Shown piece after piece: positions 1,606-29,073 of a DNA stretch of 53,452 nt. The notes below the pieces were generated by a model. That model saw only the letters and a program-made list of their open reading frames with translations, did no database searches and was not told where the DNA came from. The DNA lies in the IMG/VR virus record IMGVR_UViG_3300018933_000007, positions 1 through 53,452 of that record, one strand, 5' to 3'. Source of the stretch: a virus. Position numbers and translations under genes: made by a program. Within the stretch, counting starts at the first letter, position 1. Each line of letters opens with the position of its first letter.

Positions 1606-1633
1606 GCCACCCACCAGTCGCGTCGGTCAGTTG

Positions 1634-2366: not shown

Positions 2367-3155
2367 TCAGTGCCAGTGGCCCTCGTCGTAGTCGTCCTCG
2401 TCCTCGTCCTCGTGGTCGTACCAGTTGCGCTGGATGTGGTCCGGCGGCTCCTCTTCGCCGATCACGTCGAAGGGGTGCTTCGAGCGGTGATCGTTTTCGA
2501 AATTGCCGCGCGAGTTGCCGTGGGCGTCTTCCGCCGGATCCTTCTCCACCGGGCCAGTGGGGTGGACCTCATAGACGCGAGGCCTACCGCCGTGCGCTTC
2601 AGCGGCCCGTTCTGCGTAGTGCCAGGCATCCTCGGGCTTCGTCGTTGCGTAGGCGTACCCCGGCTCGTGGATGCCCAGGTTGTTCCCGAAGGTGCCTCTG
2701 GAGCTGTGGTTGGGACGGATCTGGTCGAGATCCTCTTCGACGTGCGTGCCGTGGTAGAAACGCTTCGGCGCGTTCGGGTCCGGCCGCGCGTCCTCTACGT
2801 GCACCGGAACTGGCCCGTGACCGGCCTGCTGAAGGGCACGCACGAGGTGGTGCTTGTGGAACTCTCTCTGGCCCGGGACGCCATTGTTACCGAAGGCGCT
2901 GCCGGGCTCAGCGTGAACCCGCGAGTACAGCTCGTTGTGCTCCAGCCGCAAGGGGCCATGGCGCTCGGGCGAGTAGCCGTTCTTCCGAATGTCCTCCGCC
3001 ATGCGGGCGACGTGGTCGCCCCACCCACCCGAGTTCGCCTTGATGCGCCTGTCGACCATGTCGTCCCGGGCGTGCTGAGCCAGCTCATCCGGATGCATCT
3101 GTTCGACGCTCTCTCGCATCCCCAGCCTCTTGATCTCCGACCAGACCAGTGTCAC
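2367..3155 (-). CDS. ParB-like/Arr-like (rifampin-type) ADP-ribosyltransferase protein
   Basis: The 262-residue protein starts at GTG 3155, overlapping the upstream stop (GTGA), with GAGGAG upstream. Residues about 133-235 match rifampin ADP-ribosyltransferases (Arr): RFYHGT (His135), YAYATT (Tyr169) and HPTGPVEKDP (Asp206) line up with the Arr catalytic His, Tyr and Asp. Residues about 25-122 resemble a ParB/sulfiredoxin-like fold, with FHKHHLVRALQQAG followed by VPVHV. The C-terminus is very acidic. Arr enzymes move ADP-ribose from NAD+ to rifamycins; here the gene lies among tail genes, so a virion-borne effector acting on a host macromolecule is inferred. The target is unknown. Confidence 0.75.
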   Translation of the reverse strand: MTLVWSEIKRLGMRESVEQMHPDELAQHARDDMVDRRIKANSGGWGDHVARMAEDIRKNGYSPERHGPLRLEHNELYSRVHAEPGSAFGNNGVPGQREFHKHHLVRALQQAGHGPVPVHVEDARPDPNAPKRFYHGTHVEEDLDQIRPNHSSRGTFGNNLGIHEPGYAYATTKPEDAWHYAERAAEAHGGRPRVYEVHPTGPVEKDPAEDAHGNSRGNFENDHRSKHPFDVIGEEEPPDHIQRNWYDHEDEDEDDYDEGHWH

Positions 3156-3877
3156 CTGAACTCCTCGCCGTGCAAGCGTACGTAGTTTCTCCACCCCTTG
3201 TCCGCCACGTAGACCCGCTCGGCCAGCAGGCCGTTCTTCTGCGCCGCCCGGGTCATGGAGGTGTTCAGAAACGAGCGCGGCTTCAGGCCCGGATGCCGCC
3301 ACCAGACGCCGATGTTCCCCGGGTGGATCGCGCCGGGACGCTTCCCCGGTCGGGTCCATGGCTGCCGGGCCTCACGCCACGCAATTCGGCCGGGGGCGCC
3401 TGGGTAGTGCGCCGGGGTGTCGGAGACCAGGACCTTCAGGCCGGTCTTCGGGTCCCGCCGGTAGATCTTCTTGCGTGCACCGATCTGCGCGGCCCGCCGG
3501 AAGATCAGCACCTGCACCTTGCCGGAGGCGGTGACACGGGTCTTCGCCTTGGGATTGTCCCGCCGCTCCTGGCCCGTGGGGTCGTCGATCCACATTGGCA
3601 CCACTTTGCCCGCTAGTGACCTCATGGTGAACGGCTTCGTGCCGTGGTCCTGGTACCAGACGACCTGCGTGGCCCACGAGAGCCCGAAGTACCCCTTGCC
3701 GTAGATCGGCTGCAACCCGCGCGCCGCGTCGCCAGTCAGCTTGGGCATCCGGCGTCGGGCCTGCCGTACGGCCTCCAGCGCGGCGGCGCGGGCACGCTTG
3801 GGGCTAAGCCCCTTCTCCACCATGATCATGCGGTCGGGGTGAGTGACCAGGTGGACCTCGGGGACGTCGACCTGCAC
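3152..3877 (-). CDS. minor tail/neck protein, HK97 gp10-like (putative)
   Basis: The 241-residue basic protein starts at GTG 3877 behind AGAGGAGG. Its pattern resembles gp10/tail-completion families: an N-terminal helix of KRARAAALEAVRQARRRMP type, then LTGDAARGL, a Trp/Tyr-rich middle (WATQVVWYQDHGT) and a late HPGLKPRSFL. Such proteins join head and tail. The assignment rests on this pattern and position. The gene overlaps the ADP-ribosyltransferase gene by four bases, suggesting coupled translation. Confidence 0.5.
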   Translation of the reverse strand: MQVDVPEVHLVTHPDRMIMVEKGLSPKRARAAALEAVRQARRRMPKLTGDAARGLQPIYGKGYFGLSWATQVVWYQDHGTKPFTMRSLAGKVVPMWIDDPTGQERRDNPKAKTRVTASGKVQVLIFRRAAQIGARKKIYRRDPKTGLKVLVSDTPAHYPGAPGRIAWREARQPWTRPGKRPGAIHPGNIGVWWRHPGLKPRSFLNTSMTRAAQKNGLLAERVYVADKGWRNYVRLHGEEFR

Positions 3878-9841: not shown

Positions 9842-10828
9842 TTACGACTTGACGATCTTCGCCAGGCCGCGCGGGTTGAGGATGAGCATGCTCACCATCT
9901 CGTCGAACACCCAGCCCTTCCAGAAGCTCTCGACCCGGTGGTTCTCCTCGACGTCGAGGCTGTACAGCACCGGGAAGACACCCAGGAACTGGGGGTCCGG
10001 CGTCAGGAACGTCTCGCCCTGCGGGATGACGATCGAGCGCTGGATCTGGAACTCGCCGAAGCTGGTGATGGTCTCACCGGCGACGACGCGGTCCTTGAAG
10101 GCCCAACCGGTCTGGTTGATGTCCCACCGGTACATGTCCCGGTAGTCCATCGGGTTGATCAGGATCCGGCTGGACTGCAGCTCGTGCATGTCGGTCATGG
10201 AGACCGCGCTGTAGAGCGAGCCCGGGGTGAGGTAGCCGGAGGCCTCCGTGATGACGTGGTTCGGTGTGACCGTGTGGTCGGACCGGCCCGCGTAGTCGGA
10301 GATCGCGGCCTGCAGGATGGTGACCAGGCGCGAGTCCTCCTGCTTGAGGATCGCCTGCTTGGTCTCGTCCTGGGCCTGCTCGACGGCGTTGATCCGCAGG
10401 TAGAGCAGGTCTTCCTTGCGGATCGCCGGACGGCTCGCGATGCGGAAGAACCGCACCTGGATCCGCTTGCCTTCGAACGGCGTGATGCGGACCTCGCCGT
10501 CCGTGCCGGACATGATGTACGCCTGTCCGAGGTCGTCCCAGACGTCGTACTCGACCGGCGTACCGGGGGTGCAGGGGTCCTCGACGAGGACGTTGCGCGT
10601 GATGCCCTGGTAGCGCAGCTTGAGCTGGATGGGGCCGATCATGCCGACGCCGAGGCGGCGGATGCCGTTCACCTGGTCGGAGGCGACGGCCTGGAGGCGC
10701 TGGCGCTTGGCCTCGAAGGTGAGGGGCTGGTTACCACGGGCCTCGCGGCGGGCGAGGATCTCGGAGACGTAGTCGTCCGACTTCTTCGCGGTGCGAACGT
10801 GGCCGGTGGCGGCGGGCGCTGCGGTCAT
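9842..10828 (-). CDS. major capsid protein (probable)
   Basis: The 328-residue protein lies next to scaffold-like and protease genes and is followed by a strong terminator. It has a helical, charged N-terminal region (ILARREARGNQPLTFEAKRQRLQ), a beta-rich middle with FEGKRIQVRFFRIASRP, and a C-terminal half with ILINPMDYRDMYRWDI, GETFLTPDPQF and FDEMVSMLILNPRGLAKIV, consistent with large-capsid actinophage shell proteins. The role rests on position and general pattern. ATG 10828 follows GAGAGGA. The longer open frame upstream overlaps the next gene out of phase. Confidence 0.75.
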   Translation of the reverse strand: MTAAPAATGHVRTAKKSDDYVSEILARREARGNQPLTFEAKRQRLQAVASDQVNGIRRLGVGMIGPIQLKLRYQGITRNVLVEDPCTPGTPVEYDVWDDLGQAYIMSGTDGEVRITPFEGKRIQVRFFRIASRPAIRKEDLLYLRINAVEQAQDETKQAILKQEDSRLVTILQAAISDYAGRSDHTVTPNHVITEASGYLTPGSLYSAVSMTDMHELQSSRILINPMDYRDMYRWDINQTGWAFKDRVVAGETITSFGEFQIQRSIVIPQGETFLTPDPQFLGVFPVLYSLDVEENHRVESFWKGWVFDEMVSMLILNPRGLAKIVKS

Positions 10829-10862
10829 GGTGAGTTGAGTCCTCTCGCTCGGCTCAGGCGCG

Positions 10863-11375
10863 TCAGCGCAGTCCGCCGATGGTGATCTTGGACGGGGAGT
10901 TGACCTTGACCAGGCGGGCGACCGGCTGGGCGGAGATCGCCGTGGCGACCGCGCCGTTGGTGGCGAGTGCGAGCTTGCCCCGGCCGGTACCGGCGGTGAT
11001 CGCGTAGACGAGGCGCTCGGTGGTGCCGTTCGGCTCCGTCCAGGCCTGGGTGTCGTCGAACGCGGGGGCGAGGATCTCGAACTCGGCGTCCGAGCCCAGG
11101 ACCCACACCGACGTGGCGTTGACGCCGACGTCGAGCATCGGGTCGAAGCCGTCGCCGCCGACGTAGTCACCGGCGAGGCCGTAGGGCACGCCGTTGGCGC
11201 CGATCAGGCTGACTCGCTCACCGCCGGTCTGGGCCAGGACCATGCCCGGGTAGATGAGGACGCTGCGGTCCCACGCCGGGTCCAGGAAAACGGACTTGGG
11301 GGTTGCCTGCGTCCATGCGTAGAGAGGACGGAGGGTCCTCTTGATGTGAGCGAGGTTTGCCCGCACGCGGATCAT
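10863..11375 (-). CDS. capsid-associated/decoration-type protein (putative)
   Basis: A 170-residue protein from ATG 11375 behind GGAGGG, just before the capsid gene. It starts with MIRVRANLAHIKRTLRPLYA and is otherwise beta-rich (SVWVLGSDAEFEIL, GRGKLALATNG). Gene order suggests a decoration or vertex protein. No motif proves it. A late element with a long leader lies upstream. Confidence 0.55.
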   Translation of the reverse strand: MIRVRANLAHIKRTLRPLYAWTQATPKSVFLDPAWDRSVLIYPGMVLAQTGGERVSLIGANGVPYGLAGDYVGGDGFDPMLDVGVNATSVWVLGSDAEFEILAPAFDDTQAWTEPNGTTERLVYAITAGTGRGKLALATNGAVATAISAQPVARLVKVNSPSKITIGGLR

Positions 11376-12409: not shown

Positions 12410-12472
12410 ACTGGGCACTCCTTCAAAGCCTTCGGGGCTCACGACGGCTGCCGTGGGCATGTCTTCACTGGT

Positions 12473-14950
12473 TCAGCTCCAGGCGGGCTTCTCGACAGCA
12501 GGCGCCTTGGAGTAGTTCGAGTTGACCTCGCCGGGGGTCAGGAGCTGAGCGCGCTGGCAGCTCGGGCAGACGTCTCCGGCGACGATGCCGTCGGCCGCCG
12601 CGCCGGGGTTGCCCATGTCCTGGGTCTGCGGCGGGGTGGCGTCGGCGCCGAACCCGCAGCTCGGGCAGAACAGATCCGCGACGCCGTCGCCGGGCTGGCC
12701 CAGCATCGGTGCCGGTGCCATGCCGTAGGGCGCATCGTCCTGATCGAGCTTCTCGTTCGGGTTGCTCGGCTCGTCCGGCCGGTAGGGCATGTCCGGTCCC
12801 GGGGTGAACGGGTCGCCGGTGCGGTCCTTGCCCCAGCCGGGCAGCTCACGGGGGCCGACCTGCCCACCCTGCTCCGGGTCGGCCATGCCCCGCTGGACGT
12901 TGACGTTGCCGTCGGGGTCGATCTCGTCCGGCTGGATCATGCCGTCACCATTGCGGTCGGAGACGGCCGGGCCGCCGCGCTGAGTGCCGTCGAGAGCCTG
13001 ATCCCCGAACGGGGACGGCGGCAGGCCGTTCTCGTCGAGCTGCTCGGCGTCGACCATCTGCGGGTCGCCCTCACCCATCGGCTGCCCGTCCGGGCCCAGC
13101 TGCTGCTCTTCGCCGCCGGGGACCGCCTCCTCGCCCTGCGGCATGGCGTTGCCGCTCTGGTCCACCCGCTGCAGCTCGCCGTTGTTGTCGATCAGGGTGG
13201 GGTCGACGATCTGCTTGCGCAGGTCGAGCTGCTTGGCCTTGTCCAGGTCCGGGTCGCGGAACTGCTCCGGCGGGTTGATGAACCCACAGATCTGGCACTG
13301 GATACCGTCGAAGGTGTCCTTGTCTCCGCAGACCGGGCAGTCTTCCTCGCGGAGGGTGTCGACGTCGGCGGGCGCCTTGATCTCTCCGTAGGCATGAGCA
13401 CGGATCGTGCCGTCGTCGTTGATGTACGTGGCGTCAATGAGTAGCGCTTGGCGGCTGCCGAACAGCTTCTGCTGCTCCCACTGAGGACCGGAGACGGGCG
13501 GCTGCGCCGCCGGGGCCTTCTTGGCTCGGGGTGGGTTCCAGCGGACGGTGTCCGCGCCGTGGTAGGGCGCCTTGTCGCCGTAGCCGGAAGGCGTGCGAGG
13601 GAACGGGGACTTGGCGACGTAGGCGGGCACCGTCTTCATCCCGGCGGCCTTGGCGCCCTCGGCCCGGTGGTGACCGTCGGCGACCTGGAAGACGCCGTGC
13701 CGGTGCACCAGAACCAGCGGGGGGACCTGGTCGGGGTTGGTCCGGTAGCCCTCGGCTGCGTAGCGCACGCGGCCGTCGTTCTCGCCGCCGTGGCGCTTGT
13801 GGTCGATGGTGTACGGGTCGACGTGCTGCAGGTGGAACGTCAGGTCGTGGACGCTGTGCCCCTCGGCGTCCGGGTCGTCTGGGCGGCTGTGTGCCAGGTG
13901 ATTCGCAGCGTCGCCGATGCCCCAGCCGTCGGCTCCCGCTGCGGCCTCGCCGTGCACCTCCGGGTCGCCGTAGATGTGGGGGTGCCGGGCGCCGATCTCG
14001 TCCCAGGAGAAGCCGTGGGCAGCTTCCTTCCGGCTTGCTGTTGTCTGCAGGCTGTTGAGGCTCGGCTTCAGCGTCGGGCTGTACGGACGGGTCTGGGTGA
14101 CGGCGTCCTGACGGCGCTTCCGGTCACCCGGGGTTCCCTCGTTCGGCACACGCGGAGCTGCGGGCGCGGGGCGCTCGGCGGGCTGGGAGAGCTTCGGCGG
14201 CGTGACGGGCTGGATATCCTCGTCGTCGTCCTCCTCCAGGTCGTCCGAGTCGAAGTCGGCCGGGTTGAACTCGGCGGTCTTCGCGGCGGCCTTGCCGATG
14301 CCGGAGGCGTCCACGCCGAGGAAGTGAGCGGTCGGGTCGGCAGGAGGCTCAACGAGCACGCTGTTCTCGAAGAAGCGCAGGCCGTAGCAGGTCTCGCGGA
14401 CGAGCTCGCCGACCTTCTTGCCGCCAGCGGTCCGGCGGTAGATCCGCTTGCCCTTCAGGTGGGGGATGTGGGAGCAGTACTCGGCAGGCGTGCGGGCCTC
14501 GTTGCCGCAGGCGGAGCACACCGAGCGTTCGACGTCGCAGCCCATGGAGGTTCGGTCGACTTCACCAGCGAGGATCGCCTTGGCCAGCTTCGGGAAGCGG
14601 ACGGCGTCGATCTCCATGAGGACCTCGGCCCAGGTGTCCGGCGTGCCGTCGGGGTTGCGGTCCTGGTGGAGGGCGGCGTCGATGATGACGCCCCGGGCGC
14701 GCCGGTGGTTGTCGTTGACGTGGTTCACGAAGACCGGTTTGCCGATGAAGGTCCGGTAGGCCTTCTCGATCTCGCTGGAGGGGAACTCGTCGAAGTTGTC
14801 GTTGCACCTTGAGCTGATCGCGCGGCTGCGTACGTACAGGTAGCCGGGACGGGCCTCGTACTGGAAGACCGCGCGGTGGGCTGCCCTGGTGATGCGCTTC
14901 TGGTCGCCGAGCGACGCGGCGATGATCTGGGCCGTGGCGAACTTCAGCAC
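12473..14950 (-). CDS. prohead protease fused to ParB-like, zinc-ribbon and EF-hand modules
   Basis: An 825-residue protein from GTG 14950 behind AGGAGGACC. Residues about 1-212 are a prohead (assemblin-like) serine protease with KPVFVNHVNDNHRRARG (His77) and VDRTSMGCDV (Ser135), plus a CSACGN…EYCSH zinc knuckle. Residues about 360-448 form a ParB-like domain (VPPLVLVHRHGVFQVADGHHRAEGA without its inner variation; core DGHHRAEGAKAAG). Zinc ribbons lie at C538/C541 with C552/C555 and at C762/C765 with C795/C798. Residues 665-676 (DRNGDGMIQPDE) fit a calcium-binding EF-hand loop. Prohead proteases are usually 200-250 residues; the extra 600 are unusual and may act as scaffold or internal protein after cleavage. 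Confidence 0.82.
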   Translation of the reverse strand: MLKFATAQIIAASLGDQKRITRAAHRAVFQYEARPGYLYVRSRAISSRCNDNFDEFPSSEIEKAYRTFIGKPVFVNHVNDNHRRARGVIIDAALHQDRNPDGTPDTWAEVLMEIDAVRFPKLAKAILAGEVDRTSMGCDVERSVCSACGNEARTPAEYCSHIPHLKGKRIYRRTAGGKKVGELVRETCYGLRFFENSVLVEPPADPTAHFLGVDASGIGKAAAKTAEFNPADFDSDDLEEDDDEDIQPVTPPKLSQPAERPAPAAPRVPNEGTPGDRKRRQDAVTQTRPYSPTLKPSLNSLQTTASRKEAAHGFSWDEIGARHPHIYGDPEVHGEAAAGADGWGIGDAANHLAHSRPDDPDAEGHSVHDLTFHLQHVDPYTIDHKRHGGENDGRVRYAAEGYRTNPDQVPPLVLVHRHGVFQVADGHHRAEGAKAAGMKTVPAYVAKSPFPRTPSGYGDKAPYHGADTVRWNPPRAKKAPAAQPPVSGPQWEQQKLFGSRQALLIDATYINDDGTIRAHAYGEIKAPADVDTLREEDCPVCGDKDTFDGIQCQICGFINPPEQFRDPDLDKAKQLDLRKQIVDPTLIDNNGELQRVDQSGNAMPQGEEAVPGGEEQQLGPDGQPMGEGDPQMVDAEQLDENGLPPSPFGDQALDGTQRGGPAVSDRNGDGMIQPDEIDPDGNVNVQRGMADPEQGGQVGPRELPGWGKDRTGDPFTPGPDMPYRPDEPSNPNEKLDQDDAPYGMAPAPMLGQPGDGVADLFCPSCGFGADATPPQTQDMGNPGAAADGIVAGDVCPSCQRAQLLTPGEVNSNYSKAPAVEKPAWS

Positions 14951-15259
14951 CGGGGTCCTCCTGTGCGGGCGGCGGCGCGTGGTGCGCCCTCGCCCCTTGG
15001 GGCGGCCCGGTGAGGGAGGAACAGGAAGAGGGGTCAGCGGCAACCTTGTGGCGCCCGGCGGCAACGTATGGGCGACGAAGTTGTGTAGAAGCGGTGGACG
15101 AGGGAAGCCGATGGCCAGGTGTGAGGCAGAATCCAGGTCAAGCGTCCGGTTTTTGCGGCCCGCCGGATGGGGGATGTTGCTCTCTTTGGCGACAAATAGA
15201 CTTTTTAAAGATTTGCCGCTACCGTTCACCCGGTGCGTCGTTGATCCGATGTGACGCCC
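14951..15259. other. leader region of the protease unit with an AT-rich island
   Basis: This 309-bp gap holds a late element (14990-15024) and, at about 15185-15220, an AT-rich patch around ACTTTTTAAAG with partly inverted flanks (GGCGACAAAT and ATTTGCCG). The minus-strand frame remains open but has no ribosome-binding site and poor codon bias. I see no clear promoter. Confidence 0.5.
14990..15024 (-). promoter_or_regulatory. late-gene start element upstream of the protease gene
   Basis: The minus strand reads CTGTT, 21 bases, AAGGGGCGA. TCCTCC in the spacer can pair with GGAGGA of the protease Shine-Dalgarno (6 bp). Confidence 0.65.
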
Positions 15260-15339
15260 GTAGACCAGCAAAGAAGAGGACCCCGGCCGACCTTCCTGGC
15301 GAGGAAGTGTGGTCGGCCGGGGTCCGGCTCCGGTCTACG
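15260..15339 (-). terminator. two-tier hairpin terminator after the holin-like gene
   Basis: A 15-bp perfect inner stem (15278-15292 with 15311-15325, GGACCCCGGCCGACC) inside an outer GTAGACC/GGTCTAC pairing. It lies 20 bases past the stop codon at 15358. Confidence 0.82.
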
Positions 15340-16507: not shown

Positions 16508-16578
16508 GCTGCTTGTCACCCCCGTGCCTTACGCTGAGTGGCGTAACTGGCGAACTAAGTGATCAACCGGGGGCGTGG

Positions 16579-17124
16579 ATGGGACTGATGCGGAACCGGA
16601 GCGGACTGAAGGGGACCTGGGAGGAGGCCCTGTCAGGCCTCGCGCTTCCCGCTTCTCACTGGACCGTTGAGGACCTGCTGCGCGCCTACGTGGAGCAGGT
16701 GCGTGGTCGCAAGCTCATTCTGAGCCGAGATCAGCAAGTAGCCTCGCCGACCGGACCGAGCGGCATGTGGTTCCCCGGACCTGACGCCGACCTTGTCTGG
16801 GCACACCCCTCCGCGACGGGCGTTCAGTACGACCACGTCCTCGGACACGAACTCGGCCACATGATCAACGGCGACGAGCCCGATAAGCTCGACCTCGCCA
16901 GCGCCGTACGCCTCCTGCTGAGTGCGTCTGGAAGCGCGTCTGGCCTCATGCAGGCCGCCCTTGTCTCAGCAGGAGTGCGGTGCCGGACCGACGGCACGAG
17001 CAGCGAAGAACGCGAGCGCAAGGCCGAAAACTTCAGCTACTACGTCGAGCAGTGGGTGACACGGAACCGCCCCCGTGGAGCGACCCTCCTTGAGGCGAAC
17101 ATGCGAGCAAGTCTCGACACCTGA
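16579..17124 (+). CDS. ImmA/IrrE-like HExxH metallopeptidase-type protein
   Basis: A 181-residue protein (ATG 16579 behind GGGGGCG; GTG/ATG codons from 16513 are alternatives). The zinc-peptidase motif GHELGHMINGDEP places His90, Glu91 and His94 in one helix. An earlier segment (GRKLILSRDQQVASPTGPSG) resembles the substrate strand of this family. The C-terminal half is helical. Partners of HTH repressors in mobile elements (ImmR/ImmA type) cleave their repressor on induction; the same relation is inferred here. Streptomyces copies are often annotated as toxin components. Confidence 0.8.
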   Translation: MGLMRNRSGLKGTWEEALSGLALPASHWTVEDLLRAYVEQVRGRKLILSRDQQVASPTGPSGMWFPGPDADLVWAHPSATGVQYDHVLGHELGHMINGDEPDKLDLASAVRLLLSASGSASGLMQAALVSAGVRCRTDGTSSEERERKAENFSYYVEQWVTRNRPRGATLLEANMRASLDT

Positions 17125-17137
17125 GAGATGAGAACTG

Positions 17138-18406
17138 GTGACCGCCACACCTGACCTTCGTGCATGGATCGTCGTCGCCCTGTTGACCGCAGAGGTCATC
17201 CGGCGCTTTCCCGCCTCCCGTCGCAACCCTCGGAGCAGGACCCTCTGGTTGGTCTTCCTGACCCTCGACATCTCGATGGTCACGATGCTCCAGCCTGTGG
17301 GCAACTTCCTGTACCACCTCACAGGTGTGAACGAGGTCGCCACCCTCACCAAGCACCTCACCGGGGTCGCCGCCGTGGCCTTCCTCCTGCGCTGGGTCAC
17401 CGACGTCGTCCCCGGCCGCATGGACGGCCGCCGCGAACCCACCTACAGGCGCCTCATCAGCAGCAACCCCCGACGTATCGCCACCTGGCTCGCCGTCATC
17501 GTCACCACCGCCGTCTTCCCTCTGGCTCACCGCCGCTCCGGCAACGAAGAGGACGCGGAGTTCATCTTCATCCAGGCGGGCCACTTCTGGGGCAGCCTCC
17601 ATATGCTGCTCTTCTACGCCTACCTGATCTTCGGCCTGGTCTGCGCCGCCCTGATGTGCGCAGATGCCTCTCGCGCCGCCGCACCTGGAGCCTTCAAGTA
17701 CGGCATGCAGGCCATCGCGCTGGGCTGCTCCATCGGCGCCCTGTACGGCATCCTGCGCTCCGGCTACCTGATCGCCCGCCTCTTCGGCAAGCCGTTCCTC
17801 GGAGGCGACGTCTTCGTGGACGTCGCCTCCAACTTCTGCCTCGTGACCTGCATCATCCTCGTCGTCTGCGGCGGCGCCGCCCCGAAGTGGGAGAGCATCG
17901 GCCAAAGGGTGAAGGCCCACGGCGCCGTCAACGACCTACGCCCCCTCTGGGTACACCTGACCAGCGCAGCACCCAGCGTCATCTACACCGACGGCCCCGC
18001 CCACCGGCGCCCCGGCCGGGCGAAGATCCTCACCGGCCGCCTGTACGACTTCTGGAACTGGAGGAACCTGGAGACGCGACTGCGGACGCGCATCCAGGAG
18101 ATCCTCGACGCAGGGAACATCGCCCTCGCCCCGTACGTGCCACCCTCCCTGCGCCAGCGCGCCGAGAAGGTGGGGCACGAACTGAGACTGCCCCAGTACG
18201 TGGTCACGGCCTACCTCTTGCACGAGGCCATCCGGCGGAAGCAGGCCGAAGAGCAACCCTTCGACGGCGAACCCAACGCACTCCTGTCGGCTGGTGACGA
18301 CCTCCTCAGTACCACCAACCGACTGCTCCCCGTCGGCCGCGCGCTGAACGACACCGCAGCTCTGGGGCTCCTCAACCGCAGGCTTACGACTGGAGTTCAG
18401 GCGTGA
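17138..18406 (+). CDS. MAB_1171c-type multi-pass membrane protein
   Basis: A 422-residue protein from GTG 17138. About seven to eight hydrophobic segments fall in residues 1-255 (for example AWIVVALLTAEVI, LGCSIGALYGILRSGYLIA and CLVTCIILVVCGGA). A cytoplasmic domain follows with the family hallmark KWESIGQR…LRPLWVHLTSAAPSVIY and helices around TRIQEILDAG. The family is called a putative transporter, but its function is unknown; the layout would also suit a membrane sensor. It lies between the peptidase gene and a PAP2-like gene, and the latter overlaps it by GTGA. Confidence 0.82.
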   Translation: MTATPDLRAWIVVALLTAEVIRRFPASRRNPRSRTLWLVFLTLDISMVTMLQPVGNFLYHLTGVNEVATLTKHLTGVAAVAFLLRWVTDVVPGRMDGRREPTYRRLISSNPRRIATWLAVIVTTAVFPLAHRRSGNEEDAEFIFIQAGHFWGSLHMLLFYAYLIFGLVCAALMCADASRAAAPGAFKYGMQAIALGCSIGALYGILRSGYLIARLFGKPFLGGDVFVDVASNFCLVTCIILVVCGGAAPKWESIGQRVKAHGAVNDLRPLWVHLTSAAPSVIYTDGPAHRRPGRAKILTGRLYDFWNWRNLETRLRTRIQEILDAGNIALAPYVPPSLRQRAEKVGHELRLPQYVVTAYLLHEAIRRKQAEEQPFDGEPNALLSAGDDLLSTTNRLLPVGRALNDTAALGLLNRRLTTGVQA

Positions 18407-18975
18407 CCCGACAGCGAGCAGCCCGGCTCCTCACCGACATCGTCGACCCCAAGAACGTCATCGCCGTGCTGTGCCTGGCCGTCGGCGCACACTACGGCTG
18501 GTCCGGCGTCGGCTGGGGCGCGCTGGCCATCCTCTTCTGCGCAGCCATACCGATCACCTTCATCATTCTCTCGGAGCAGGAGAAGTCCTGGGCCAACCGG
18601 CACGTCCCCGACCGTGCCCGGCGGATGATCGTCATCCCGTTCATCATCCTGTCGGTGCTGACCTGCCTGACGCTGATGATCGTCGGAGGTGCCCCAGCGC
18701 CGCTCCTCTCCATGGTCGGGGCCATGCTGGCCACCTGCGCCGTCCTGTGGCCCGTCACGAAGTACACCAAGATCAGCTTTCACACCGCCGTCCTGTCGGG
18801 CGCGCTCGTCATGATCGGCCTGCTCTACGGTCCCTGGTGGCTCCTCTCTGCCGCCCTGATCCCGCTGGTCGCCTGGTCCCGAGCCCAGCTCCAGGACCAC
18901 ACCCCCGGCCAAACCATCGCCGGAGCACTCCTCGGCGCCGCCGTCGCCGGGCCCGTCTTCCTCCTCGGCCTGTAA
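18403..18975 (+). CDS. PAP2-superfamily-like integral membrane protein
   Basis: A 190-residue protein with about six transmembrane segments. TKISFHTAV and VAWSRAQLQDHTPGQTIAGALLGA resemble motifs 2 (SGH) and 3 (SRxxxxxHxxxD) of type 2 phosphatidic acid phosphatases, but the usual KxxxxxxRP motif is not seen and Asp in motif 3 is Gln. It may be a divergent lipid phosphatase or an inactive relative. It is translationally coupled to the MAB_1171c-type gene, and the cassette terminator follows at once. Confidence 0.65.
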   Translation: MTRQRAARLLTDIVDPKNVIAVLCLAVGAHYGWSGVGWGALAILFCAAIPITFIILSEQEKSWANRHVPDRARRMIVIPFIILSVLTCLTLMIVGGAPAPLLSMVGAMLATCAVLWPVTKYTKISFHTAVLSGALVMIGLLYGPWWLLSAALIPLVAWSRAQLQDHTPGQTIAGALLGAAVAGPVFLLGL

Positions 18976-19028: not shown

Positions 19029-19463
19029 TCAGCTCATGAGCATCTGCAGCGCCATCGTCATCTCCTCCGAAGTCAGCGCCTCACCGGCCGCGATCTTCTC
19101 CTTGAGCTGAGCCTGCGCCTTCTGCTCGTCCGTCATCCCGTAGTACGGGTCCGGCCGGTGAGCCGCCATCACCTGTCGCAGCGCGGCGACGTTCACTGAG
19201 GACGGCGTGACGTAGACGGTCACCGGGTTCTTCGGGTCCACCGGCAGGACCTTGTCCTGGTCGTCGTACTGGTGCAGGACCGCAAGCTGGATGTCCGGCC
19301 CGAGCGCCTCGGCCACCTCGGCCTGCAGCTGGCCCAGCTCCAGCGCACGCGTCCAGGTGAAGCGCTGGCTGTCGCCACGGAAGGGGTCCGTCGGGTCCGA
19401 ACCGTTGTCGGTTATCGGCTCCGGCATCGGCTCGGCGAAGTCGGTGGTGGTCACATCAGCCAT
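19029..19463 (-). CDS. protein of unknown function coupled to the SWIM/ART gene
   Basis: The 144-residue protein overlaps the end of the upstream 732-residue gene by 13 bases, so the two are co-translated. It has an acidic N-terminus, a FTWTRALELGQLQAEVAEAL helix and a C-terminal helix pair (DEQKAQAQLKEKI, ALTSEEMTMALQMLMS). It could be a partner or chaperone of the large protein. No family is recognised. Confidence 0.6.
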   Translation of the reverse strand: MADVTTTDFAEPMPEPITDNGSDPTDPFRGDSQRFTWTRALELGQLQAEVAEALGPDIQLAVLHQYDDQDKVLPVDPKNPVTVYVTPSSVNVAALRQVMAAHRPDPYYGMTDEQKAQAQLKEKIAAGEALTSEEMTMALQMLMS

Positions 19464-21649
19464 GTGGTGTCGTCCTCCTGTGCCGCCAGCACCTGCTCCA
19501 GGTCGGCGTAGTGGGTGTCCTTGATGTCCAGGCGGTCGAGGTTCGCCGCCCGCACACCCTCGCCCTCGTTGATCAGTGCCTGCTGCTCGGCGAGGGTGAA
19601 GTCCTTCAGTGCCTGCCGACGCAGGCCCGCCGTCATCGACGGCGTCAGGTCCATGGCCTCCGACGGTGTGACGGCCGTGCCGTCCGTCGCGGGCAGCGCC
19701 CCCTCCGGCTCGTCATGCAGGACCGCCTCCGCGCCGCCCGGCTCGAACAGGGCCTCCTCCCGGCCCGCGTACGACTGCAGCGGCAGCTGCCGGTTCCAGC
19801 CCACTGGGTCGGCGCCCGCCAGCGGCCCCGCCGACGCCGGGTTCTCCCACGGCCGACGCTTCTGCGTCGCGCCCGGCGTCTTCGGCAGCTGGTACGACGT
19901 CCCAGACGGTTCCCCGAACGGCGCGTTGGCGTTGGCCAGCGGCTGGATGCCCGCCGCGCTCAGCGCCAGCAGCAGCTCCCCCTGGTCCTCCCCGGCCGCC
20001 ACAGCCGCCCGTGCGACCACGGACAGCGCAGAGTCCGCTGACGGCTGACGTAGAAAGGCGTACACGTGGTGTCCGCCCGGGAAGTCGTGCCGGGTGTACT
20101 CGCGGTCTGTGTGGTCCTCGATCAGGTCTCCGTGATGGTTGCGCACTTCGTGCATGGGCTTCCAGGAGATGCCCTTGAGATTCACCGACGCTCCGGGGTG
20201 AAGCGGCACCTCGCGCTCGCCATGGTCGTAGTACCCGTACACCTGACCAGCGCTCTCGTCCGGGTGCTCGTTGATGTCCTCGCGGTCCGGGGTGTGGGCG
20301 TGCAGAACGACAGAGGTGCCCTCCCAGTGCTGGCCGCTGGGATGGTGCAGCGCCGAGTTCTGAGAGCCGGTCTCCCCGAACGACTCGGCAACTCCGTCAT
20401 CGGAGGTCCAGTGCCAGCCGACACTGCCCTCATGGCCGTGGAGGCTGCGGGGGAGGGACTTCAGCAGGTGGTGCGCGCGCTCTTCGACCGGGCGAGATTC
20501 GTCGTGGACGATCGCGTGGTCCTCGGGGTGCAGGTGGACACCGAGCCCTCGGTGGATGCCGTCGAGTCCGGAGTGGATGTCATCCCACTCCCGGGACTTT
20601 GCCGCAGTCTCCGCCTCGTGGTCCTCGTTCTCGTCGAAGTTCCACCCGTACATTGCGTGCTTGGCGGTTGAGGGGGCGAGCCGGTGCTTGTCGGCGTCGA
20701 TGTCGTAGCGGACGACGACTTTGCGCGGGACCCAGGACGGCTTGTGCTCGTCCACGTGGATGTCGCGGCCGAACATGCCCCGTGACTGGGCCTCGTACTG
20801 CAGGGCGAGGGCGTGGGAGCACATGCGACCTGCGAACCGGCTGAAGTCGTCGTCGGCGCCCCAGTGGTAGGCGCCCCACTTGCAGCCACAGGACCAGGAG
20901 TGCGCGGCCATCTTGCCGGGCATGCGCTGCAGGCCGGTCTCGTAGACCTCGTGGTCGCCCTTGACCTCGGCGAAGACCATGCCGTCGGAGGCGAGGGTGA
21001 CGCGCAGGCGGCCTTCGGCGCGGATCCGCTTGGCCTTCTCTACGACGTCCCTCCACGCGGCGGTGACGTGGAAGCGGAAGTCGGCGTCGGTCGCGGCCGT
21101 CACGACCAGGTCGGAGAACGCCTTCGAGGCGTTCTTCACCCACGGCGGTGCGTCGTCGCCGTCGTCGTCCGAGTCGTCCTCGCCGCCGTCGTCGTCGGAG
21201 CCGTCGGACTCCTCGGAGTCGTCGCTGTCGTCCGAGTCGTCCTCGTCGCCGTCGTCCGAGTTGTCGCTGTCGTCGGCGAAGGGGTTGTCGCCCTTCGCGG
21301 CCGTAACGTGCTGCAGGGCCGGGTCCGGCCGCTCAACGAGGACCTGGGCCAGCTCGGGGTAGTCGGCGGCCGCCGTCTGCTCCATGGCCTCGGCGGTGAT
21401 CGGCGCGGGGGACAGCTGGGAGGCCGTGTACCGGCCGCCGCCCATGCCGTGCTCCAGCTCGACGTGGTACTCCTCGGAGCCGGGGAAGGGGCCGTCCTCC
21501 ACGTGCTTGACGACGCCCGTGACGCCGTCGATGGTCTTCACGCGCTGCTCGGGCTTGTAGTCCCAGTAGTCCTCCGAGCGCACCGCGAGACGCTGCACGC
21601 CCACCGTCTGGTGCTCCAGGCGCTCGCTGCGCTCGTAGTTGCCGCTCAC
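19451..21649 (-). CDS. SWIM zinc finger and ADP-ribosyltransferase fusion protein
   Basis: A 732-residue protein from GTG 21649 behind GAGGGAGG. Residues 126-167 are an extreme Asp/Ser tract. Residues about 250-285 fit a SWIM zinc finger: WSCGCKW (Cys254, Cys256) and RMCSHAL (Cys277, His279). Residues about 360-510 match R-S-E ADP-ribosyltransferases: HRGLGV (Arg367), HWTSDD (Thr415/Ser416) and GEREVPLHPG (Glu478-x-Glu480, the ExE turn). The C-terminal 200 residues are Pro/Ala-rich and helical. T4 Alt is an established virion-injected ADP-ribosyltransferase; a similar role here is inferred from its place among virion genes. Confidence 0.75.
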   Translation of the reverse strand: MSGNYERSERLEHQTVGVQRLAVRSEDYWDYKPEQRVKTIDGVTGVVKHVEDGPFPGSEEYHVELEHGMGGGRYTASQLSPAPITAEAMEQTAAADYPELAQVLVERPDPALQHVTAAKGDNPFADDSDNSDDGDEDDSDDSDDSEESDGSDDDGGEDDSDDDGDDAPPWVKNASKAFSDLVVTAATDADFRFHVTAAWRDVVEKAKRIRAEGRLRVTLASDGMVFAEVKGDHEVYETGLQRMPGKMAAHSWSCGCKWGAYHWGADDDFSRFAGRMCSHALALQYEAQSRGMFGRDIHVDEHKPSWVPRKVVVRYDIDADKHRLAPSTAKHAMYGWNFDENEDHEAETAAKSREWDDIHSGLDGIHRGLGVHLHPEDHAIVHDESRPVEERAHHLLKSLPRSLHGHEGSVGWHWTSDDGVAESFGETGSQNSALHHPSGQHWEGTSVVLHAHTPDREDINEHPDESAGQVYGYYDHGEREVPLHPGASVNLKGISWKPMHEVRNHHGDLIEDHTDREYTRHDFPGGHHVYAFLRQPSADSALSVVARAAVAAGEDQGELLLALSAAGIQPLANANAPFGEPSGTSYQLPKTPGATQKRRPWENPASAGPLAGADPVGWNRQLPLQSYAGREEALFEPGGAEAVLHDEPEGALPATDGTAVTPSEAMDLTPSMTAGLRRQALKDFTLAEQQALINEGEGVRAANLDRLDIKDTHYADLEQVLAAQEDDTTWLM

Positions 21650-21677
21650 CGGCGCCTCCCTCAACGGCTGAAGTCCT

Positions 21678-21712
21678 TCAGCCCTTGGGGGCGTATGCCG
21701 GTGCGGCGACAG
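21678..21712 (-). promoter_or_regulatory. late-gene start element upstream of the SWIM/ART gene
   Basis: The minus strand reads CTGTC, 21 bases, AAGGGCTGA. CACCGGC in the spacer can pair with GCCGGTG, which contains the GTG start codon. A small GGCTGAAG/CTTCAGCC hairpin lies between. Confidence 0.7.
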
Positions 21713-21721
21713 CATCAGCCG

Positions 21722-23234: not shown

Positions 23235-26126
23235 TCAGGCGCCCAGGTTGTTGGTCGGAGTAGTGCCCGCACCCGCGATCTCCATCACGGCGACCGCGAG
23301 GGTGCCCTTGGTGATCAGCACGTTTCCGGTGATCTGGTTGGGGCCGGAGTCTCCCATCGCCTCCTCGCGGATCAGGGACCGGGTTTTGCCGTTCGTCGGG
23401 GAGGAAGCGATGGAGTTCCCGCTGATGAGGTTGTTCTTGGTGCCGTATTCCAGGTGGATGCCGGAGACCTGGCCGTTGAGGGAGCCGACCTCGCCGGGGC
23501 TGAAGATCGTGCAGCCGGTGACGACGTTGCCAGTGGCAGCGATGAACACGCTGTCACCGGCAGTGCCGTCGAAGTTGCAACCAATGAGCTTGGTGGCAGA
23601 GGCGTCCTGGATGCGGACGCCTTTGGTGTTGTTGGTGGCGCCGCCAACGAAGTTGCAGGCCACGATCTTCTGGGTTCCTGCCCGGTCGAGGATGCACACG
23701 GCGGTGTTGAAGCCGGTGCCTCCGGATCCGCCGAGGAACTCAAAGTCGCAGCCGATGATCTGGTTCTCGTCGCTGGAGCTCATGTGGATTCCTCGGCCGG
23801 GCCCGGTGGAGGTCATGGATTCGTCGAACAGGCAGCCGATGATGCGGTTGTTGTGGCCGAAGGCGCCGCCGCTCATCCCACCGAGGTAGAGGCCGTCGTC
23901 GCGGCAGGCGACGAAGTGGATGTTGTCGAATCGGCAGGCCACGGCGCCGCTGCCGTCGATGCCGCCGGATGTGCCGGTGGTGCCCTGCTCCAGGCAGTTG
24001 CCGTCCACGGTCAGGTCGCGCATGGTGATGCGGGTGTCGGCGCTGGTCATCTTGAAGACGTAGCAGTTGGAGTTCGCCTTCAGCTTGACCGAGGAGCCCC
24101 AGCCTGAGCCGAAGATGGAGTAGCCGCTTCCTGCCGGGAGGACGATCGGCGCGGACACGAGGTAGGTGCCGGTGGGAATGTAGGCGGCGGTCTTGGCGGC
24201 GGCCGCCGCGTTGACGGCCGCCTGCAGAGCAGCCGTATCGTCCGTGATGCCGTCCCCCGTGGCGCCGTACGCCTTGACGTTCAGCCACTCAACGCCGCTC
24301 GGGCGGACGCGCCGTACGGGGGCCGTGGTCGGGCCGGAGGCGACCGTCGCGACGGGGCCTACGGTGACGGCCTGGTTGGTCCCGTCGTCGTGCAGGCCCT
24401 TCTGGGCTGCATGCAGGTACAGGCCGTCCAGCTGCACGCTGGTCGAGCCCGAGACCCGTACGCCGTACTGAGGCGAGCTGGTGCCGGTGCCGTCGTCGTC
24501 GAGGCCCGGGTAGCAGGTGACGACGCTGGCAATGACGGGCACGGTGGCGCCGACGACGGCGAGACCGGCGTGGTTGTTGCCGCCGTTGCCACCGTTGCGC
24601 CCGTCGCGGCGGGCCATCAGGTTGGTGATGCTGATCGGGGCGTTCCCGAGGGCGTCGACCAGGACGCCGTCGCCGCCGTTGCGGTCGGTCGAGCAGGCGT
24701 CCATCAGGAAGCCGCCGGAGCCGGTGCCGTTGCCCCAGGCACCGGTGACGTGGACGCCATGGCTGCCGTTCCACTCGAACCTGCAGCCGATCGCCTGGCT
24801 GTTGGGGATGTTCGTCAGGACCGCGCCGCGCCCCCAGCAGCCGATGACCTGGCAGTCGATCATGGTCAGGTCGGTCATCCGGGTGAGCAGCAGACCGTTG
24901 GCGCGGCAGTTGTCGATCATGACGCTGGTCATGCGCCAGGAGTACGGGAAGACGTTGTTCACGCCGCCGGTGACGATGCCGTTGTTCGACATCCGGCGGA
25001 TCGTCACGTTGGTCAGCCGCACGTTCTGGATGTTCCCGGCGGCGAAGATCCCGTCGACCGGCTTGGTGCCGTCCAGCGTGGACCCGTCCAGCATGAGGTC
25101 CTCGATGCGGTGCTCGGCGGACAGGGAGGCGTATCCGCCGCTGGCCTGGTCCTTGAACAGGACCAGGGCGGTACCGACGAAGCTGGGCAGGGGCTGGATG
25201 TAGCAGGGCGGATCGGCGAGGTTCTGCCCCGCCATCATGTTGGCGTGCGAGCCGCGCAGCGTGACGCCCGGCTTCGGCACGATCGGCGCGGAGACGGCAT
25301 AGACGCCCTGGGGGAAGTAGACGATGCCGCCGGGCGGACACGCCCCGATCGCATCGTTGATCGCGGCGACATCGTCCGTCACGCCATCGGCCTTCGCTCC
25401 GTAGAGGGCGTCCTTGACGTTGATCCAGCCGAACACGGACTGGCCGAGCTGGCCCACGGTGGCCGCGTCCGTCGGCTGCACGCCCGGGGCCAGGTTTGCC
25501 AGCCGCTGGGCGTTGATGTCCACGGCGGCAGTCGGCTTGCGCAGCTGGTGCAGGGCGGGCATCTCGTGGACGTGCCGAGCGTCGGCCGCCTTGCCGCTGG
25601 TTCCGGCCGCCCGGGTGCCCAGGGGCTGAATGTCGGTGTTGTCGCCGCTGATCGGCGTTGCGCCGCCGCCGGAGCCACCGGAGCCGATGTCGGTGGGCAG
25701 CTGGCTGTAGGGGATGCGGCCAGAACCGTCGAGGCCCGCGTAGCCGTTGGGCAGGCCGCGCTGGTTGACGGGCTGGAAGAAGACGCCCGGCGCGGTCGCC
25801 TCGGCCAGCCGGGGCGCGGTGGCCAGATCCACGGGGCCGCCGTCGTACGGCACGGCGATGAAGTACGTGGCCGTGGCCAGCCCGGACAGCGTCTCGGTCA
25901 CCTCGTAGGTGCCGCCTCCGGCCGGGAGTGTGTCCGGGTCGTCGGTGGCCGGGACGATCAGGGCTATCGAACCTTGCGCGTTGAGTGTGGCCGTGTAGGG
26001 CCGCCGGTCAGCGATCTCCCCGTTGTTGGTGAGCACGCCGACGAGCTGCAGCCGAACCGTTCCGCTGCGGGGGTTTCCCGAGCCGTCGAGGTAGGTCCGC
26101 GTGACCGGGACCAGGGTAAAACTCAT
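23235..26126 (-). CDS. tail spike with two pectate-lyase-3 (beta-helix) domains
   Basis: A 963-residue protein. Residues 1-110 are a beta-rich particle-binding domain. Residues 125-147 ([20 protein letters not shown]) and 160-190 ([20 protein letters not shown]) are standard phage fibre connectors. Two Pectate_lyase_3 starts follow, at about 235 ([17 protein letters not shown]) and 614 ([16 protein letters not shown]), each leading into a right-handed parallel beta-helix. It should recognise and perhaps degrade a surface polysaccharide. Its ATG overlaps the portal stop codon. Confidence 0.9.
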
Positions 26127-28297
26127 GCCTGCAGCTCCTTGTTGATGTCGTCCTCCGCGATGTGGCGGCGCATGCCGATGTGGCGGGGACCTTGGTAGAG
26201 GCCGACGGCCTGCTTGCGCTGGATCGCCTCGGGGACCGGGACCTCGGAGGCCTCCGCGTCGGCCTCGGCGACCGGCTTCGGCGGCACCTTGACCTTCGGC
26301 TGGTAGGTGTCGGCCAGGAGCCGGATCCTCTCGTGGTTCTGGAACAGACCCGTGGCGTCGTCCGGCGTCGGCCGGGCCGCGTAGACGGACTGCTTGGGCA
26401 TGTCCGCGCGGGCCTCGTCAGACTCGTCGGGACGCTGCTCCTGGCCCTGGTCGGCGTCGACCGGCTCCGGCACCCCGCCGGGCTGTGCCACGCCGCCGTC
26501 CGGCGGCATCGTGGTCAGGTCCTGCATGGTCGGCGCGAGCGTGGGCTGTGAGCCGACCGGATCCATGCCGAGGATCGGGATCCGCAGCGGCGCCGTCGGC
26601 GGCTGCGCCATGTCCTGCTCGGCCGGGAGCGCGCGCGGCTGGAAGTCGGCCCGCAGGTCCTCCGGGATCGGCAGCCCCTTGCCCGCGAGCGCCACGTAGA
26701 TGGCCTTGCGGGTCTCCTGCTCGGCGACCGCGAGCTCGACGGCCTCGTCGCGGGACTTCTCGACCTCTTCCTCGAAGTCGATGTTGACGTTGTGCAGGCG
26801 CGTCTTCATCGAGATCGGCACCCCGGCCTCGCGCAGGGCCTCGAAGAACTCGTTCTGCGCGGCCTCGTCCTGCAGGGACATCGTCTTGAACTGCAGGTCG
26901 GGGATGAGGAGCTTGGGCTGCTCGACGATCCGGCCCTCGCCGGTCTCCTCGTCGATCTCGTAGATCTCCTCCATCTTCACGTACCGCTTGCCGCCCCTCT
27001 CCTCGTAGTCGAAGTGCTCCTGCGCTTCGGCGACGACGAGGGCTCGCTGGCGGTAGTGCGCGGTGACGAGCTGCTGGTAGTTGGTCAGCATCTGCGTGAC
27101 CAGGTCCCTGTTGAGGGCGTCGGCCGCGTACGTCTCGCCGGAGGACGCACCGGCCAGCATCGTCTTGGACAGGCCGAAGGTCTGCAGGACGCGACCCTCG
27201 ATCCGGTCGAAGTCGGGGGAGAGGTCGGGGATGTCCTCCTTGCCCAGCACGGACTCCATCTGGACCGCGAAGTGGGTCATGATGATGCGGAAGTCGCCCG
27301 CGAGGGCCGCGTCCACGGCCTCCTCGAAGTCGGCGAGGTCGTCCATGGTCGGGATCCAGGGCACGTTGGTGCCCAGGTCGCTCGCGGAGGCGCCGAGCTT
27401 GGCGTGGATGAGCGGCGTGTACAGCCGGTCGGCGATCGAGTCGACGGCCGCGTTCAGCATCTCCTCCTGCATGAGCGAACGCATCGCTCTGTACAGCAGG
27501 GGGATGCCCCGGGGGTTGAACGTGTCGGCCTCGTGCTTGAGCTGACGCAGGAGGATGTTCGACACCGGCATCAGCGAGTTGTCGTCGGCGTAGTACGTCA
27601 GCTCCGGGTACGCCGTGATCAGCTTCTCGTACTCCCACGCGGGCATGCGGGTGCGGATGAGCTCGCGCATGCTCTGCGGCAGCCGGATCAGGAACCGGGG
27701 CTCGCGCAGGAACGGGGACAGCTGCACTTCGACGTCGTCGGGGTTCAGCAGCTCCTCGTCGTCCCAGACTCCGAGGTCCTCGTTGAAGGTGCCCAGCGGC
27801 CAGGCCTCGCCGACCGTCCAGTACTCCCGGCCCATCCGGACCAGGAAGTCCTTGTAGTTCAGGCCGTCTTCGGAGAGGAAGTGGTCCGTGTAGAACTCGG
27901 TGAGTCGCTCGTCCTTACAGCTCAGCTTCAGGCCCAGCAGCGGGTACTTCGAGTAGATGTCGACGCACGAGCCGACGATCGGGTGGCTGATGTAGAGCAG
28001 GCGGCAGTACGCCCGCATCTTCGCCATCTGCGCCGGGTCGTCGAACTGGAATGGGAGGTTGTTCTGCCTCCAATAAAAAAGTGGGTCGCGCGGCCGTACG
28101 GTCGCGAAGCTCACCGAGGGGTTCGACCCGGTCCCCGCGACGCCCGCAGCGGTCTTGCGGTTGACGCGCCTGTTCAGACGCATCTCGGCGACCTCTTCCG
28201 ACTCCCCAGGGCGCGAGGAGAAGCGCTTGAAGAGCCGGTCGATTCTCGACTGCTCCTGCTGGTAGTTCGGCTGGGCGCCGCCCCGCTGCTGGGCCAT
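26123..28297 (-). CDS. portal protein
   Basis: A 724-residue protein with portal-type features: a conserved N-terminal half ([49 protein letters not shown]), then [24 protein letters not shown] typical of large actinophage portals, a helical stem, and a long Pro/Glu-rich C-terminal tail. It forms the dodecameric DNA channel at one capsid vertex. ATG 28297 follows AGGAGG. Unlike most phages, neither terminase nor protease lies next to it. Confidence 0.85.
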
Positions 28298-28375: not shown

Positions 28376-28561
28376 TCAGGACGATGCGGTCTTGCGCCGA
28401 CGAGGCTTCACCGGTTCCGCCGAGACCTCGTCGGCGTAGCCGTATGCCAGGAGCTGCCGCGCGCGGTCCTCCTGGCCGTCGGGCAGGGTCACCCACTCAC
28501 CGGGCTGGTAGACGTGGCCGTCGATCTCCAGCTGCACGCGCGCCTTCAGGGGGATGCTCAC
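28376..28561 (-). CDS. small conserved-type protein of unknown function
   Basis: A 61-residue protein starting with GTG that overlaps the upstream stop (GTGA), behind GGGAGGC. VYQPGEWVTLPDGQEDRARQ suggests a small beta domain followed by a helix and a basic tail. It is co-translated with the zinc-ribbon gene before it and lies just before the portal. Confidence 0.65.
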   Translation of the reverse strand: MSIPLKARVQLEIDGHVYQPGEWVTLPDGQEDRARQLLAYGYADEVSAEPVKPRRRKTASS

Positions 28562-29073
28562 TTCCCGCCTCCCAGCAGTCCGGCGAGATACGCAACGTAC
28601 GCGGTGCGCTCCATCGTTCGGCCGCCCTGGGCCCGATAGGCAGAGTTCTTGCCGAACGGCGGCGGACCCCCGGATCCGCTCTTGTCGTCGCCGGACTCCT
28701 CCGAGCCGGGCGGGCCATTGTCGGGGCTTGAGTCGCTTGAGTCGCTTGAGTCGCTGTCCTGCCCGAACGGGGGGGCGTCCCCACCGTCCTCCTCGCCTTC
28801 AGCGCCCGGCGGCATCGCGTTCGGGTCGGCGCCCGGCGGCATCCCCGGCATGGCCGGGGGCGGCATGCCGGGGATCTGCACCGGCATGCCGTCGATGGAC
28901 TGGGGGAACGCCGAGAACATCGGCTGGACCCGCACCAGGAAGGCCTGGTTGCAGAACGAGCACTCCGTGTTGCCGTCCGAGCGGCCGATGACCTGCCCCG
29001 AACCGCAGAACGGGCAGTGCGCGATGGTCACCCCATCGCCGGACTGATGCGCCACCACTACGCGCAGCGTCAT
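28558..29073 (-). CDS. zinc-ribbon protein with low-complexity tail
   Basis: A 171-residue protein. HCPFCGSG (Cys20/Cys23) and ECSFCNQ (Cys38/Cys41) form a zinc ribbon. A Pro/Met/Gly-rich stretch, an acidic Asp/Ser tract and a short helical C-terminus (TMERTAYVAYLAGLLGG) follow. The ribbon resembles those in the protease fusion at 12473-14950. The tract is encoded by a short tandem repeat (28727-28756). Function unknown. Confidence 0.65.
   Translation of the reverse strand: MTLRVVVAHQSGDGVTIAHCPFCGSGQVIGRSDGNTECSFCNQAFLVRVQPMFSAFPQSIDGMPVQIPGMPPPAMPGMPPGADPNAMPPGAEGEEDGGDAPPFGQDSDSSDSSDSSPDNGPPGSEESGDDKSGSGGPPPFGKNSAYRAQGGRTMERTAYVAYLAGLLGGGK
28727..28756. repeat. 9-bp tandem repeat in the zinc-ribbon gene
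   Basis: About three and a half copies of CTTGAGTCG encode a repeating Asp-Ser-Ser run. Such a tract may vary in copy number without breaking the frame. Confidence 0.8.

Follow-up and report, generated by a model that had tools for sequence, protein, structure and literature searches.

A modular SWIM zinc-finger protein with a predicted ADP-ribosyltransferase domain, encoded among phage head genes

The subject of this analysis is a minus-strand gene located at 19451-21649 of a 53,452-base IMG/VR virus record (IMGVR_UViG_3300018933_000007), hereafter the window, to which all coordinates refer. Its 732 amino acid (aa) product is a modular protein, in which a SWIM domain and a short C-terminal motif, C2, are fixed within the family, and the inserted enzyme domains differ between close relatives through swapping, multiplication or loss. 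The insert found in the window is a domain with R, S/T and E motifs, which is probably an ADP-ribosyltransferase (ART). We consider it probable that the protein is a carrier of exchangeable effectors loaded in the phage head, its cargo being here this single R-[S/T]-E ART-like domain. An earlier sequence-only reading of the window, which described the protein as a fusion of a SWIM finger and an ART, missed the modular carrier and the swapping of its cargo between close relatives.

Relatives of the carrier, about 190 loci, were collected with the portal, the head protein and an alignment of the SWIM domain. A search of IMG/VR with the whole protein had given no match, because the back-translated stretches mostly fell in its variable parts. 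Five segment profiles (N, SWIM, ART, C1 and C2) were run over all open reading frames (ORFs) of these loci, and the family set was defined as the 61 complete, non-identical members having both SWIM and C2. These members measure 248 to 2693 aa. In every one of them, C2 ends within 0 to 21 residues of the C-terminus; N was found in 44 and C1 in 51. The four ligands of the CxC...CxH zinc finger (C254/C256 and C277/H279), correctly placed by the sequence-only reading, are invariant across 19 diverse relatives and correspond to the SWIM pattern (PF04434). Pfam SWIM matched relatives, up to E 8.7e-5, and did not match the window protein itself.

Comparison of close relatives showed that the cargo is replaced, and has not drifted. 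A protein from a Streptomyces contig (L117) is 90% identical to that of the window over SWIM and 87% over C1, with a DUF6098-like insert replacing the ART, and another (L084) is 92% identical over SWIM and just 35% over the ART. Intact ARTs, keeping both R and E, numbered none in 41 of the 61 members, one in 16, two in 3 and three in 1 (L085 and L093 have two each), and ART copies were found on either side of SWIM. Cargo recognised by Pfam in 34 relatives comprised NUDIX (9), LigT/2H (3), GNAT (3), GDSL (2) and Arr-ms (2), and further inserts were ParBc_2, LysM, and DUFs 6098 and 7178. Some carriers are free of cargo (L113, 522 aa, and L193, 248 aa). In L102, L103, L133, L134, L145 and L159, the carrier gene consists of two overlapping ORFs, N and ART being in the first and SWIM usually in the second, through gene fission or frameshift.

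The position of the gene is also conserved. On the minus strand of the window, the order is portal, pectate-lyase-like protein, amidase, carrier, a 144-aa gene, a plus-strand island, prohead protease, probable scaffold and major head protein, which bears out the placing of the gene in a virion region by the sequence-only reading. In relatives of Mycobacterium phage Bxz1, the carrier gene lies downstream of the portal and almost always just before the prohead protease. Of the 77 loci showing both, 73 have the protease as the first or second labelled gene after the carrier. In Mycobacterium phage LinStu (Bixzunavirus Bxz1), for instance, the order is gp90 portal, gp96 SWIM protein (annotated with a LysM domain), gp97 protease, gp98, and gp99 major head protein. 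A tblastn search with the window protein matched 210 phage records, nearly all of them mycobacteriophages, and in all matches listed the alignment spanned only residues 197-366, from the SWIM region to where the ART begins.

We then considered the ART-like domain. The sequence-only reading had named R367, T415-S416 and E478-x-E480 as those of an R-S-E ART. All are present at these positions, and three motifs are found in ART order: HRG, HW[S/T]...A..FA and xEVPl.pG..v.l. R367 lies in HRG, in agreement with the Arg that precedes Gly in strand 1 of R-S-E ARTs of the Alt/ModA/ModB type, and E480, the second Glu of (E/Q)xE, is present in every copy keeping the R. Among distinct ART copies, the R and this second E were both kept in 32 and both gone in 8, one partial copy without the R column being left outside the tally. 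The T415 column holds S or T in 31 of the 32 R/E-intact copies, while S416 and E478 are not conserved. At the level of sequence, the coupling of R and E is the pattern expected from loss of catalysis in decayed copies, and since the copies are related, no probability is attached to it. Decayed copies lacking R and E adjoin intact copies in the same protein at L104:16692-17069 and L102:20341-20718 and, as partial copies, in L099, L101 and L114. A further R/E ART copy (L210, G002 C16:53657-54082) is encoded at another place of a phage-like contig of a Streptomyces assembly, within an open frame of 1061 aa.

Profiles were compared with seven T4-type ModA/ModB proteins, shuffled or reversed controls giving scores of at most 15.1. 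With the Mod profile as query against the ART domain, the score was 34-35 (probability 53-69%), and in the reverse direction 20-24 (probability 2-7%), so that both directions were above controls. An earlier run with the T4 proteins alone was not significant. When aligned with ModB, the S/T and E motifs are in register, T415 occupies the third position of S-x-T, and H413, whose column is variable, falls on that of the canonical catalytic serine. The motif would therefore not be a textbook STS, and of the proposed R-S-E enzyme, what holds is an ART-like R-[S/T]-E domain with profile similarity to ModA/ModB.

Structure prediction, put forward as a check in the sequence-only reading, gave fair models. 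Two AlphaFold models, built from 16 and 30 sequences, had predicted local distance difference test (pLDDT) values of 78 and 84, and predicted template modelling scores (pTM) of 0.78 and 0.81. The order of elements in the models is a helix, a strand with HRG, two helices, a short strand with HWT, a helix, a strand, a strand with EVPL, and long C-terminal strands, which is ART-like. No significant match to a solved ART was obtained in the PDB. The top Foldseek matches were the NAD-binding module of IcmQ (E 0.24) and pertussis S1 (E 0.48), both insignificant, with a template modelling score of about 0.3. That the top match of each search is an ART-like protein binding nicotinamide adenine dinucleotide (NAD) is only suggestive. 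The best matches among viral models were Bxz1-type phage proteins, including ParB-like ones (E 2.2e-5).

Coordinates of the carrier, its parts and neighbouring genes are reported in Table 1.

Table 1. Location of the carrier gene, of its parts, and of other genes discussed in the text.
Feature	Position	Strand	Evidence
SWIM-ART carrier protein, 732 aa, GTG start	19451..21649	-	ORF and close orthologues
Ribosome-binding site GAGGGAGG ahead of GTG 21649	21655..21662	-	sequence
Conserved N-terminal block (N), residues 13-111, unknown fold, ending DYPEL...RPDPA	21317..21613	-	hidden Markov model matches in 44/61 complete relatives
Acidic Asp/Ser/Glu linker, residues 126-166 (41 residues)	21152..21274	-	sequence; missing from close relative L117
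SWIM domain, residues 185-322	20684..21097	-	ligand alignment; Pfam SWIM in relatives; phrog_30974 and phrog_2940
CxCx20CxH zinc ligands C254, C256, C277, H279	20813..20890	-	alignment
R-[S/T]-E ART-like cargo domain (predicted), residues 354-497	20159..20590	-	residue conservation, profile comparison, models
R367 codon, HRG motif	20549..20551	-	
T415 codon, HW[S/T] motif	20405..20407	-	
E480 codon, xEVPL motif	20210..20212	-	
Conserved C1 block, residues 572-623, Pro/Gly-rich	19781..19936	-	51/61 complete relatives
LHDEPEGALPATDG linear motif, residues 644-657	19679..19720	-	alignment consensus
C2 motif, residues 676-722; candidate head-loading signal	19484..19624	-	profiles over relatives; also in LinStu gp96
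144-aa partner, follows carrier whatever its cargo	19029..19463	-	overlaps carrier stop by 13 nt; own AGGAGG
Portal protein	26123..28297	-	phrog_2833, E 2.1e-137
Prohead protease fused to ParB-like region	12473..15271	-	phrog_2774 and phrog_18299
Probable scaffold	11540-12460	-	
Major head protein	9842..11170	-	phrog_2522
Tail sheath	73-1614		
Arr-ms domain protein, second ART class	2367..3359	-	PF12120, 37.1 bits vs cut-off 25, E 3.8e-9
Zinc-ribbon protein before portal, second candidate cargo carrier, cargo-free in window	28558..29073	-	L136 homologue

The carrier ORF is not a chance frame, because close orthologues are present and its GC content at third codon positions (GC3) is 0.91. Its GTG start follows GAGGGAGG with a 5-nt spacer, and no comparable ribosome-binding site precedes the upstream ATG at 21715. 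The Asp/Ser tract announced by the sequence-only reading was found at residues 126-166, with 23 D, 8 S and 4 E in 42 residues counted. QHTA / HVTAA peptides recur near domain borders in the carrier family (19451-21715 in the window) and might be prohead protease sites. Between domains, 53 were observed vs 12.6 in shuffles, an excess apparently due largely to the conserved FHVTAAW at the start of SWIM, and they are kept as a lead only.

The window is most likely part of a larger genome of about 155 kb, as several close relatives span 152-157 kb. Two of these were found inside Streptomyces assemblies. The plus-strand island (15929-18975), which includes DUF6545 and PAP2-like proteins, splits the minus-strand head module by separating the 144-aa gene from the protease, and a gap of similar size exists at this position in relatives. 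In addition to its ParB-like region, the protease has zinc ribbons fused to it, which may make it a further multi-effector protein. The TTG start annotated for it appears too far upstream. A long delta domain considered on the major head protein was dropped, the first ~115 residues of this ORF resembling out-of-frame read-through.

A second, different ART class had been claimed nearby, and the Arr-ms match of ORF 2367-3359, above the Pfam cut-off, bears this out. This ORF overlaps an upstream ORF (3152-3877, minus strand) by 208 bp in another frame, and its first ~70 residues may be untranslated. Arr-ms is also found inside the carrier in L099 and L114. The zinc-ribbon protein encoded directly before the portal, 163-186 aa long in close relatives of the window, reaches 1551 aa elsewhere, and this largest homologue (L136:1156-5811) contains an R-[S/T]-E ART together with a segment resembling the Arr region of L099. 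Judging from these arrangements, at least two proteins of the head module exchange cargo.

The model that we favour can be put as follows. C2, SWIM and possibly the 144-aa partner would place the carrier in the prohead, SWIM perhaps acting by binding DNA or a head protein. The carrier would then enter a Streptomyces-type host together with the DNA on infection, and its ART would use NAD+ to ADP-ribosylate a host target early. T4 provides the precedent: Alt is packaged in the head and injected, and Alt, ModA and ModB ADP-ribosylate RNA polymerase as well as proteins of translation. The slot would serve, in relatives, to deliver other NAD-, nucleotide- or protein-modifying enzymes. That the carrier of this Streptomyces-type phage is packaged in the virion and injected, we infer solely from its genome position. 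More tentatively, SWIM and C2 might constitute a dedicated head-loading module, in which a zinc finger and a short signal at the C-terminus bring fused enzymes into the prohead of Bxz1-like actinobacterial phages. It would represent an undescribed class of effector delivery, drawing on a pool of cargo common with the second carrier across the portal.

Several points weigh against the favoured model. The hhalign probability with ModA/ModB is at most 69%, and only 2-7% once the comparison is reversed. No Pfam ART family matched the domain, no significant PDB match was obtained by sequence, and Foldseek gave no PDB match at E below 0.001. ARTs of the PF03496 family from Streptomyces score within controls against it, a yardstick of little power, because ModA/ModB themselves score only 15.5 against PF03496. 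The role of C2 in loading is a guess from its position and conservation only. No proteomics or enzyme assay exists for the window protein, and none was found for Bxz1-type gp96 in the open-licence literature. The domain could instead have a different fold, its motif only resembling that of ARTs, or belong with NAD-binding or NADase proteins akin to ARTs, of the RES or IcmQ type. In keeping with this, the searches by sequence, in Pfam and in PHROGs with the ART domain gave no significant match, and the weak matches obtained included RES (E 0.12), IcmQ and NatT, which are NAD-related ART-like folds. We nevertheless hold this to be improbable, given the three motifs in correct order, the joint conservation of R and E, and a similarity to ModA/ModB above controls.

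A structural or assembly role in the head, as an internal core or head completion protein, would explain why the gene stays between portal and protease, why SWIM, C1 and C2 are conserved, and why the cargo-free carriers exist at all, the conserved part then having a job of its own. The inserts would be tolerated domains working in the virion or in late assembly, and would not be injected. However, most inserts recognised by Pfam (ART, Arr, NUDIX, 2H, GNAT) are enzymes with NAD, nucleotides or proteins as substrates, which suits early takeover of the host better than assembly, and the catalytic residues are jointly selected, so that we regard this role as unlikely. The 144-aa protein, proposed by the sequence-only reading to be a chaperone or inhibitor of the ART, raises the question of a toxin-antitoxin pair, with the ART as phage toxin and its neighbour as specific inhibitor. 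The 13-nt overlap, which makes co-translation with the carrier likely, and the AGGAGG before the second start are compatible with such a pair. But the gene is retained in the ART-free L113 (47%) and in L049, which has neither ART nor SWIM, and it stays beside ART-free carriers generally. The inhibitor role was rejected on this ground, and the pair, largely refuted, is now very improbable. If the 144-aa protein has a partner, it is tied to the carrier or to head assembly, and not to the ART.

The favoured model of a head-loaded carrier follows the logic of two known systems, the polyvalent proteins and the MuF toxins (PMC5512222, PMC9503650, PMC5576092), and differs in its carrier module and in the use of an R-[S/T]-E ART within it. 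According to passages of Iyer et al. 2017 (PMC5512222), the polyvalent proteins that phages and conjugative elements encode are large and multidomain, ART, GNAT, 2H and ParB-like domains being among those combined. Their genes lie near head genes, and they are predicted to be packaged and injected. The carrier family likewise combines several effector domains (ART, Arr, GNAT, NUDIX, 2H) on one polypeptide, in phages that package by portal and terminase, the window member having one enzyme domain. In these passages, however, the hub is a zincin peptidase and the ART is of the H-Y-D type, whereas the fixed part of the carrier is SWIM plus C2, Pfam detected no zincin in it, and its ART has R and E instead. 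No mention of a SWIM plus C2 carrier was found in passages on polyvalent proteins from the open-licence literature, an earlier description elsewhere being possible, and no open-licence paper was found in which SWIM zinc finger, bacteriophage and virion are all named.

MuF-domain polymorphic toxins (PMC5576092) are similar in being head proteins near the portal with exchangeable toxin domains, but their cargo is C-terminal, whereas that of the carrier is internal or on either side of SWIM, the C-terminus being its conserved end. A relation with them was dropped, as Pfam found no MuF domain in the window protein or in 34 relatives. The enzymes of T4 have their R, S/T and E motifs in the identical order, and ModA/ModB show a moderate profile similarity to the carrier ART. 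At the level of sequence, the similarity is weak and depends on the direction of the comparison; Alt, ModA and ModB have neither SWIM nor C2 and are not modular, and the first Ser of S-x-T is not conserved in the carrier ART. Another close counterpart is gp96 of LinStu (Bixzunavirus, Bxz1-type), annotated as LysM protein or endolysin, a positional orthologue with SWIM and C2. It differs in having LysM as cargo, and an R-[S/T]-E ART was not detected in it.

Polyvalent proteins and MuF toxins showed that injection of enzymes along with the DNA is probable in some phages. In actinobacterial myophages, including the well-studied mycobacteriophages of the laboratory strain mc2 155, the equivalent protein, gp96, is filed as LysM protein, endolysin or hypothetical. 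If it is recognised as a carrier, one of the largest genes of these phages acquires a testable function, and candidate early effectors (ART, Arr, NUDIX, 2H, GNAT) can be catalogued. The short motif conserved at its C-terminus also becomes open to testing as a head-loading signal.
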